From: Leptotrichia hongkongensis
GTDB lineage: Bacteria; Fusobacteriota; Fusobacteriia; Fusobacteriales; Leptotrichiaceae
Direction: 5' to 3'
NCBI RefSeq assembly: GCF_007990635.1
Contig: NZ_AP019846.1
Span: forward strand, 1,674,001-1,738,000
Length of the DNA stretch: 64,000 nt
The translations under genes and the position numbers were made by a program. Under the pieces are notes generated by a model that was given only the letters and a program-made list of their open reading frames with translations, did no database searches and was not told where the DNA came from. Below are positions 37,940-40,169 of this stretch, piece after piece; positions within the stretch are counted from its first letter, which is position 1; every line of letters starts with the position of its first letter.

Positions 37940-37953
37940 CTCCCCCTTTTTTA
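37926..37953 (+). terminator. Terminator between two convergent genes
   Basis: AAAGGGGA pairs with TCCCC-CTTT (one bulged C) around a short loop that contains the stop codon of the plus-strand gene. Six T follow. It sits at the convergent end with the radical SAM gene and may work in both directions. Confidence 0.75.
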
Positions 37954-38655
37954 TTGTACATATACTCCAAAATCTTTATTGTCCACAAGAATTTCAATAT
38001 TCTTCTTTTTGTTTAACTCTGGATAAATTTCTGTCAAAAACCATTTTACAAGTTCTTCATCCCGCTCCACTTTTGTATCATTATTCACAAATACACTTAA
38101 GGCTATTTCATCAAAATACTCCTGAGCAAGTTCTATATCTTGTAAAATCATTTCTTTTGTCTGCCCTTTTATACAAATCATAAAAAGTCCCATCTTATAT
38201 TCTTTTTTTATTTTTTCCAAAACTTTATCATTTGTAATAAAATTTTTGGTAAGCACTTTTGTTCTAAATTCATTATCAAAAGTTTCCATTCCAATAGCAA
38301 ACCGCACTTCCTGCTCACTAAAATATTCCCTAATTTCATTAAGCCTGTTTATATACCCAAAATACGCTTCAAAATACAATATTTTTATATTTTTCTCACT
38401 GCAAACTTCCTTAATTTTAGAAAGCGTAAAATCGTTCAGTTCAAAAACAGAGCCAGAGTTTATAACCTGTAAAACTCCTTTTTCACCAGTAATCTGATTA
38501 ATCGCCTCCAAATTTACTCTGTTCATTTCCTCTTCATCATCTGTATTATCCAAAATATAATTACAAAATGCACATTTTCCATATGCACAGCTGAATCCTT
38601 TTAAAAGTACTATTTCTCTAGGATTTTTTTCTTTTATTACACTATATCTTATCAT
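37951..38655 (-). CDS. Small radical SAM protein, candidate queuine lyase (QueL-like)
   Basis: 234 residues. The iron-sulfur cluster motif is CAYGKCAFC (cysteines 25, 30 and 33), followed by a shortened TIM-barrel with KILYFEAYFGY and FAIGMETFD. The N-terminus MIRYSVIKEKNPREIVLLKG resembles compact radical SAM proteins of gut Firmicutes. It lies 15 bases after a YhhQ-type queuosine-precursor transporter. In Clostridioides difficile, radical SAM QueL converts salvaged queuine to preQ1; context suggests the same here. The radical SAM assignment is firm, the QueL role is inference. Confidence 0.8.
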   Translation of the reverse strand: MIRYSVIKEKNPREIVLLKGFSCAYGKCAFCNYILDNTDDEEEMNRVNLEAINQITGEKGVLQVINSGSVFELNDFTLSKIKEVCSEKNIKILYFEAYFGYINRLNEIREYFSEQEVRFAIGMETFDNEFRTKVLTKNFITNDKVLEKIKKEYKMGLFMICIKGQTKEMILQDIELAQEYFDEIALSVFVNNDTKVERDEELVKWFLTEIYPELNKKKNIEILVDNKDFGVYVQ

Positions 38656-38670
38656 TTTTATTCCTTTTCA

Positions 38671-39390
38671 TTAGTCTTCACTTACTTTTCCGTTATTTTT
38701 CCAAATTGTTGCAATATATACAAACGGTGTATCCAATAATGCAATTACTACTTTTAGGAAATAAGTTGAAAATATAATTACAATTATTTCTTTCATTGAA
38801 TAAACTCCTAAAAATGCCATAAACGAGAATACTATATTATCAAGTATTTGACTTAACATAGTGCTTGCATTATTTCTAATCCAAATATCTTTAAAGCCCG
38901 GACGCAATTTTCTGATTGCCTGATAAGACCAGATGTCAAATGCCTGTGAAGCCGCAAATCCAGTTACACTTGCTATTGCCAGTCTTGGCATAAATCCAAA
39001 CACTTGACTCAAAGCCCCTTGCATGGTGTCAGACGGTGCTACCTGTATTTTTAGGACAATTTGCATAATAAAAGTTGTAAACAGCATTGAGGCAAATCCT
39101 AGTGAAACTACTTTTCTAGCATACTTCTTCCCTTCATTTTCAGAAAGGATATCTGATGCTAAATAAATCCCACCGAATGCAATATTTCCCATTGTCGTAT
39201 CCACACCAAACAAGGTCATCATCTTCCCAACCTGAATATTTGCGATAACTATTGAAAGTGGTACAATTGAAAGCAATCCTGCCTTTCCCCAAAATCTATA
39301 AGCCAAGATAACCGCTGTAAAATTAAGTAACAAATATCCTAACCACATTAATTCATTTACTCCAAACTGAAAGTTTCTAAAAAATTCCAA
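38671..39390 (-). CDS. yhhQ: Queuosine precursor transporter, YhhQ/VUT (DUF165) family
   Basis: 239 residues with six membrane segments. Family hallmarks are NIAFGGIYLASDILSENEG near 70, the GFAASQAFDIWSYQ segment near 145 and WIRNNASTMLSQILDN near 173. E. coli YhhQ imports preQ0 and preQ1; relatives with altered specificity import queuine. The start is TTG 39390-39388 with AAGGAGG seven bases before it. Transcribed from a strong promoter at 39,578-39,606 through a structured leader. First gene of a two-gene unit. Confidence 0.9.
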   Translation of the reverse strand: MEFFRNFQFGVNELMWLGYLLLNFTAVILAYRFWGKAGLLSIVPLSIVIANIQVGKMMTLFGVDTTMGNIAFGGIYLASDILSENEGKKYARKVVSLGFASMLFTTFIMQIVLKIQVAPSDTMQGALSQVFGFMPRLAIASVTGFAASQAFDIWSYQAIRKLRPGFKDIWIRNNASTMLSQILDNIVFSFMAFLGVYSMKEIIVIIFSTYFLKVVIALLDTPFVYIATIWKNNGKVSED

Positions 39391-39449
39391 AATTTTCCTC
39401 CTTATAATTTTTATTTTTTATTTAATTAAATTTTCCCTATTTTTTTAGA

Positions 39450-39515
39450 CAAATAAAAAACACACACTATCCTTTTGAATAATATGTGTTTCCAAAAGGT
39501 TTTTTTTAGAGATGG
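39450..39515 (-). promoter_or_regulatory. Structured leader with terminator-like hairpin ahead of the queuosine salvage genes
   Basis: On the minus strand: CCTTTTG ... CAAAAGG (7-bp stem, plus 39,492-39,498 and 39,471-39,477). Within its loop, AAACACA can instead pair with the downstream TGTGTTT, which is followed by a T-run. The two pairings can form an H-type pseudoknot or alternate as anti-terminator and terminator. It lies between a strong promoter and the transporter start. It does not match the preQ1-I consensus. Confidence 0.5.
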
Positions 39516-39577
39516 ATTTTCCCAAACATCATTATATTTTTTATTACTATTATTTATAGTTATTTTTATTGTCTTTT

Positions 39578-39606
39578 ATTATACAAGCATTTAGCAAAAA
39601 ATGCAA
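39578..39606 (-). promoter_or_regulatory. Sigma-70 promoter of the queuosine salvage genes
   Basis: On the minus strand TTGCAT (plus 39,601-39,606) and TATAAT (plus 39,578-39,583), 17-base spacer. Leader of about 180 bases to the transporter start. Confidence 0.8.
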
Positions 39607-39692
39607 GAAAATAATAATTTTTTAAAAATTTGCCCCTTTTTTGCCCCCTGATTGATAAAATAAAAATTCTCTATCAATACCACAAATATATT

Positions 39693-39724
39693 TTAAAAGA
39701 AAAAGAACAGATTTTACTGTTCTT
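39693..39724 (-). terminator. Terminator at the chromosome-side end of the prophage
   Basis: On the minus strand AGAACAG pairs with CTGTTCT around TAAAAT (which contains the stop codon of the DUF2335 gene), followed by TTTTCTTTT. Confidence 0.8.
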
Positions 39725-40169
39725 CTTCTGATTGATTTTTATTTTCATCTTTATTTCTTAAACCTACAGAAATAGCTAATCCACCTATAGCTCCTAACAT
39801 AGTTACATATCCTGCTAAATTACGCCCTATACTTAACAGATATATCCCACCTATTAGAGCAGATAAAACTACTATTCCACCTATTACCTGTCCTAAAATT
39901 CTATATGTTACTGCTCCATTAACTAACTTTTCTTGACATTTCTGAAAACTCTCTGACTCCTGTAATTCTATTTTTTGTCTGTTTTTCTGTTGATTTTCTG
40001 CCATTGCTACAATTCTGCTTGCTAATCCCTCTTGAATATTTTCATATCCTTGTAATTCTTCAACTGTTGGTATAGGGGCAGAACGGAAAGAAACACTTTT
40101 AGCAACTGCTCTTGTTCCAATTTTTGAAGTTTGGGACACTGGTGGTTTATTTGTTTTTCTCTTAGACAT
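39714..40169 (-). CDS. DUF2335 family membrane protein
   Basis: 151 residues. A basic, disordered N-terminus (1-30) precedes the DUF2335 pattern TVEELQGYENIQEGLASRIVAMAE... (about 35-55) and a helical stretch. Two membrane segments (about 90-135) and an acidic tail follow. DUF2335 proteins are common in prophages and near mobile elements; function unknown. It lies outside the lysis operon, after that operon's terminator, which is where accessory (moron) genes sit. Probably cotranscribed with the small gene just upstream. Confidence 0.8.
   Translation of the reverse strand: MSKRKTNKPPVSQTSKIGTRAVAKSVSFRSAPIPTVEELQGYENIQEGLASRIVAMAENQQKNRQKIELQESESFQKCQEKLVNGAVTYRILGQVIGGIVVLSALIGGIYLLSIGRNLAGYVTMLGAIGGLAISVGLRNKDENKNQSEEEQ

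Follow-up and report, generated by a model that had tools for sequence, protein, structure and literature searches.

The leader preceding the queuosine-salvage genes yhhQ and queL of Leptotrichia hongkongensis is probably a transcription-terminating OFF riboswitch that represents a divergent subtype of the preQ1 class I architecture, with preQ1 as its most likely ligand. The window analyzed here, 64,000 nucleotides of contig NZ_AP019846.1, contains the following features of the leader and its operon, with aptamer bases numbered as in the type I Can riboswitch.

39578..39606, minus strand: promoter, with -35 UUGCAU (39606-39601), a 17-bp spacer and -10 UAUAAU (39583-39578), from sequence and recurrence in relatives
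39497..39531, minus strand: preQ1-I-like aptamer, a putative H-type pseudoknot, UGAUG UUUGGGAAAAUC CAUCU CU AAAAAAAA CCU (alignments; R2 model)
39527..39531, minus strand: P1 5' strand, with U39531 opposite U39510, giving 4 pairs here and 5 in most relatives
39515..39526, minus strand: loop UUUGGGAAAAUC, containing U6 (39526), the P2 5' strand GGG (39523-39521) and the specificity base C17 (39515)
39510..39514, minus strand: P1 3' strand, in which C18 (39514) pairs with G5 (39527) as the pocket floor
39500..39509, minus strand: A-rich L3 tail, CU and eight A (alignments)
39497..39499, minus strand: P2 3' strand CCU, common to aptamer and antiterminator (alignment, sequence)
39493..39499, minus strand: antiterminator 5' arm CCUUUUG, pairing with CAAAAGG
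39471..39477, minus strand: antiterminator 3' arm CAAAAGG, pairing with CCUUUUG
39456..39493, minus strand: intrinsic terminator hairpin of approximately -16.7 kcal/mol, with a U-run after it that extends to approximately 39450 (fold, terminator scan)
39397..39403, minus strand: yhhQ ribosome-binding site AAGGAGG (read from sequence)
38671..39390, minus strand: yhhQ (QPTR/COG1738), queuosine-precursor transporter with a UUG start (TIGR00697, 184 bits against a cut-off of 51; Vut_1)
37951..38655, minus strand: queL-like queuine lyase, a radical SAM protein (homologue of queuine lyase, PDB 6p78, E 8.8e-57)

The leader had a folding energy of -24.6 kcal/mol, compared to -13.5 kcal/mol for shuffled sequences (z -3.84), and 0 of 200 shuffles folded as well. 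Together with the YhhQ/TIGR00697 and queuine-lyase matches, this agrees with a preliminary description of the DNA, which had predicted a structured, switchable leader ahead of queuosine-salvage genes; the words that it named (CCUUUUG, AAACACA, CAAAAGG and UGUGUUU followed by a U-run) were all found on the minus strand. Its "strong promoter" has a perfect -10 element and a -35 element with 3 of 6 consensus bases, which makes "strong" generous and is the reason that a consensus promoter scan omitted it. The same promoter stretch was present in L003, L006, L009, L012, and L018; farther upstream, GGGGGCAAAAAAGGGGCAA was also found in L003 and L006 and was absent in L009, L012, and L018. Prophage-type genes stop approximately 100 bp upstream of the leader promoter (window 39610-39714), and this interval is probably an integration junction beside the yhhQ promoter. 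The prophage-type block ends with a gene for a small membrane protein (39714-40169; DUF2335 match, E 5.4e-10). A terminator serving prophage read-through was also considered and rejected, since the leader also occurs in genomes whose upstream DNA bears no relation to this junction.

The aptamer (39531-39497) lies directly upstream of CCUUUUG, and the CC of its tail can pair with GG of the loop to form P2. The sequence layout of P1, loop, A-rich tail, and P2 was found in all 20 aligned rows, which comprise 13 distinct sequences, as were invariant G5, U6, C17, C18, and tail A's. The alpha site of preQ1 class I riboswitches, as given in PMC11625349 and PMC8752633, consists of the G5-C18 floor, U6, the cytosine C17 immediately preceding the P1 3' strand, and A30 of the A-rich loop, and each of these bases was present in 20/20 variant rows. 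Mean pairwise identity among 15 representatives was 0.90 in the core, 0.45 in the 30 nucleotides (nt) upstream, and 0.38 in the 30 nt downstream. R2, a model built from variants only, scored the window aptamer at 56.6 bits (E 3.9e-10), with the window row included in the model. Four of the five P1 pairs never varied and the outer pair alone covaried (over 13 rows, AU 7, CG 2, GC 1, UG 1, and unpaired 2, the window among the unpaired). This outer pair (39510/39531) is U-U in the window and in the five loci with the common promoter stretch (L003, L006, L009, L012, and L018) and A-U in L002, L004, L005, and L007. The P2 strands (GGG with CCU) were invariant, with no covariation within the variant rows; because P2 never varies, its assignment is by analogy rather than by covariation, and the pseudoknot itself is likewise a prediction drawn from its resemblance to preQ1-I. 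The isolated aptamer folded no better than shuffled sequences in an energy model without pseudoknots.

A P1-only model (R1) made from 13 Leptotrichiaceae yhhQ leaders and run over 98 Fusobacteriota genomes produced 30 strong matches (E ≤1.2e-4) in 30 genomes, after the removal of 5 weak matches (E 0.0036 to 0.0088) that fell in 4 genomes. The preliminary description had allowed that such a search might find the leader unconserved, which it did not. All 30 strong matches preceded queuosine-salvage operons, 21 at yhhQ and 9 at a gene for a queK-like nucleoside hydrolase followed by a second transporter. The 21 yhhQ-associated matches were in Leptotrichiaceae, a family in which yhhQ was found in 30 of 33 genomes and 9 yhhQ genes were without the variant; queL followed yhhQ in 20 of the 21, the exception being G017, with no queL match. 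All sampled genomes of the window genus (13/13) contained the variant, and YhhQ of L031 (Leptotrichia sp. oral taxon 879) was 98% identical to that of the window. The other nine sites were in genera g13 and g12, which belong to another family outside the model, and had E values of 2.6e-6 to 1.2e-4. Each lay just before an IU_nuc_hydro-type gene and then a second YhhQ-like transporter. Family searches established this for both genes of G037 and for the hydrolase of G035, and reading frames did so for the other seven. By family and context this hydrolase is QueK-like and would be expected to have QueK activity. Ten genomes, G037 included, had a hydrolase with ≥70% identity to the G037 query; the leader was the variant in 9 of them and of RF00522 type in 1 (G082). 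Visual inspection of 230 nt upstream of the more distant queK-like genes of genus g25 (52 to 54% identity; L121 to L124) showed no variant leader.

This distribution bears on whether the leader senses a small molecule at all. A constitutive attenuator or a protein-controlled terminator, with the upstream motif as a protein-binding site, would be compatible with an invariant P2. Such an arrangement is very unlikely given that 30/30 strong matches precede queuosine-salvage operons, that the pocket bases are identical to those of preQ1-I, and that models of the two RNAs cross-match weakly but in place.

The divergence from the preQ1-I consensus noted in the preliminary description was evident from the Rfam preQ1 model, RF00522, which had no match in the window at its gathering threshold nor, on 391 nt or 61 nt, at E ≤10. 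Among 4,227 Rfam families, no preQ1-II or preQ1-III match was found near the aptamer at E ≤10, and no known Rfam family accounted for the leader. RF00522 exceeded its cut-off in only 5 of the 98 Fusobacteriota genomes, and the cut-off also excluded many preQ1-I-like relatives. In the opposite direction, R2 matched 14 of 16 canonical-type leaders weakly but in place (14.5 to 27.5 bits; E 0.0006 to 0.27) and missed L038 and L125, where "canonical-type" denotes an RF00522 match or, for L146 and L147, a judgment by eye.

The variant was compared to each of the three types of preQ1-I. It resembles type II (the Bacillus subtilis and Thermoanaerobacter tengcongensis kind, part of RF00522) in its predicted H-type layout, G5-C18, U6, the C before the P1 3' strand, A-rich L3, and a transcription-termination platform, as in B. 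subtilis. It differs in its GG/CC(U) P2, its longer tail before P2, and its lack of an RF00522 score, and the AC that marks type II before the P1 3' strand was limited to one row of 20, with A16 in L008. With type I, which binds two stacked preQ1 molecules, the variant shares U6, U7, C17, A30, a 12-nt loop, and, in 16/20 rows, U16, and P1 AGAUG/CAUCU is common to the variant and to type I-like leaders of neighboring genera. It departs from type I in having A in 20/20 rows in place of the beta-site C31 (0/20), a tail of AACC rather than CUAGG, and a loop of UUUGGGA rather than UUCGGAAACC, and thus falls outside that type. The pyrimidine-rich stem-loop and AAGG tail that mark type III are replaced by the loop UUUGGGA... 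and the tail AACC. When leaders were aligned on P1, those of neighboring genera had N-U-AAAAAA-CUAG, or an A-rich CUAG lacking the U, at the place where the variant had N-U-AAAAAAAA-CC; up to the first P2 C, the window tail exceeds that of neighboring leaders reading UAAAAAACUAG by 2 nt. RF00522-matching queL leaders such as L040 to L043 resemble type I, with UC before P1 and a CUAGG tail. The leader of L044 (genus g25, before yhhQ and queL) resembles the variant in AGAUG/CAUCU, UC before P1, and a tail ending in CC, but has the loop UUCGAAAAAUC, a six-A tail, and an RF00522 match below the gathering score (35.7 bits). It was also the best R2 cross-match of the canonical set (27.5 bits) and may be an intermediate between variant and canonical forms.

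From these alignments and model scores, we conclude that the variant is homologous to preQ1-I and yet a distinct subtype. In the searches described here, no Rfam 15 family covered the subtype, which is known so far only from Fusobacteriota. The core pattern had no matches in viral contigs, and R2 had none in 398 genomes from another phylum, that of L034, a search without a positive control that shows little. A literature search, judged mostly from listings, recognized no paper on a queuine-sensing riboswitch or on this Fusobacteriota variant.

Downstream of the aptamer, AAACACA begins at 39491, and GUGUGUGUUUUUU (39467-39455, minus strand) is followed by the U-run; the terminator hairpin (39493-39456) consists of the stretch between the antiterminator arms paired with GUGUGUGUUU. 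A terminator was present in 29/29 leaders examined. A hairpin using the P2 CC with downstream sequence was found in 28 of the 29, with L010 by eye using only the second C; in 4 of the 28 (L011, L013, L067, and L072), the lowest-energy CC hairpin encloses the terminator, and a competing hairpin is visible by eye. These downstream platforms comprise at least three unrelated sequences, with the words CCUUUUG/CAAAAGG, CCUUU/AAAGG, and AAAAACC/GGUUUUU. Shuffled sequences gave antiterminators as good in 4/40 cases for the window, in 9/40, 8/40, and 8/40 at other loci, and in 0/40 at three loci; for L008, no antiterminator was found within the span limit. Because these per-locus results are unimpressive, the argument for the mechanism is the recurrence of the arrangement in unrelated platforms.

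In the proposed switch, plentiful ligand would lead the nascent RNA to fold P1 and a ligand-filled P2, in which GG of the loop pairs with CC of the tail. With P2 holding the CC of CCUUUUG, the CCUUUUG/CAAAAGG antiterminator could not form, and the terminator would stop transcription before yhhQ-queL. When ligand is scarce, CCUUUUG would pair with CAAAAGG and trap the terminator arm in its loop, so that transporter and queuine lyase would be made. Ligand binding should favor termination, because the CC that closes P2 also starts the antiterminator; both the direction of switching and the identity of the ligand are inferred. The terminator is computed to be more stable than the antiterminator (approximately -16.7 versus -6.7 kcal/mol), and therefore the choice between them must be kinetic.

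The alternative pairings named in the preliminary description, which it took for either a pseudoknot or antiterminator/terminator alternatives, thus appear to be the expression platform, and the sensor is placed upstream of them at 39531-39497. CCUUUUG/CAAAAGG and AAACACA/UGUGUUU are complementary, and an H-type pseudoknot of these words that would itself be the sensor was judged geometrically possible; the words lie in the less conserved part of the leader, however, and this arrangement is highly improbable. The words were rejected as a sensor, since unrelated terminators replace them in L008, L019, L029, L066, and L074 with the upstream core unchanged. The suggestion of a divergent or new queuosine-precursor-sensing RNA was sound as to divergence, with a preQ1-I-like aptamer that keeps the ligand-contacting bases, and had overlooked the aptamer itself.

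The window genome contains tgt and queA, and neither queC nor queF was found over the cut-off in any of the 33 family genomes; the matches below it presumably represent different proteins with PP-loop and GTP-cyclohydrolase folds. Queuine lyase yields preQ1, which Tgt uses as its substrate. With tgt and queA present and queC and queF not over the cut-off, yhhQ and the queuine lyase therefore fit a salvage route of import, conversion of queuine to preQ1, and the action of Tgt and QueA. Leptotrichia is listed as a queuosine-precursor consumer in PMC11130926.

The ligand is probably preQ1. As the end product, it would be the logical signal for an OFF switch that controls the queK-transporter and yhhQ-queL operons alike, whereas queuine would shut off its own lyase. 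It is unlikely that the same fold and switch serve a pocket that recognizes queuine, queuosine, or two stacked ligands. Favoring such a pocket are the 2 nt by which the tail exceeds that of the neighboring UAAAAAACUAG leaders, the retention of the type I beta-site U7 and mostly of U16 (16/20) despite the change of C31 to A, and the RF00522 match (E ≤1.1e-5) directly before queL in G036, G037, G038, G042, and G044, five of the nine genomes whose queK-transporter operon has the variant in front. The alpha-site bases are unchanged, however, and a queuine-sensing OFF switch would silence the queuine lyase when its substrate is abundant. In G082, moreover, a canonical leader (RF00522-type, 36.3 bits) precedes a 71% identical queK, which an in-frame TAG divides in two there, and the two RNAs therefore seem to be interchangeable. 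Canonical preQ1-I also controls queK-qrtT-queL in Clostridioides difficile, according to PMC11477304; the pathway logic, in which a preQ1-I RNA governs queuine/queuosine salvage, is the same as that proposed here, but the C. difficile RNA is a recognized preQ1-I and its transporter is of another family (ECF QrtT). Also doubtful is a fourth preQ1-I subtype in which the 2-nt-longer tail and altered P2 would build a taller pocket for queuine, or for a stacked ligand pair, rather than one preQ1; if it existed, some Fusobacteriota would monitor successive queuosine-salvage steps with two different RNAs.

A salvage-gene riboswitch type that the current Rfam preQ1 model misses means that regulation of queuine/preQ1 uptake is under-annotated in such microbes. 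Genomes containing both the variant and a recognizable preQ1-I provide a natural setting for testing whether so small a pseudoknot pocket was retuned to another ligand.

Other preQ1-like or yhhQ-associated leaders were also observed. The genome of the window has a weak RF00522 match (21.1 bits) at G000:C1:1398769-1398805. In a Clostridia metagenome-assembled genome (L034:2885-2931), a subthreshold RF00522 match (24 bits) with a possible CCAU/AUGG P2 precedes a yhhQ homologue. In four genomes of genus g11, of the same family as the window (L025 to L028), a different, conserved leader, GUUCAUAGGUGGCAGYGUUGAAC followed by A-rich sequence and UUAGGAGG (Shine-Dalgarno), lies directly before yhhQ. 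It has no Rfam preQ1 match at E ≤10 and forms a hairpin with a tail entering the Shine-Dalgarno sequence, and it is possibly another, translational, queuosine-precursor RNA.
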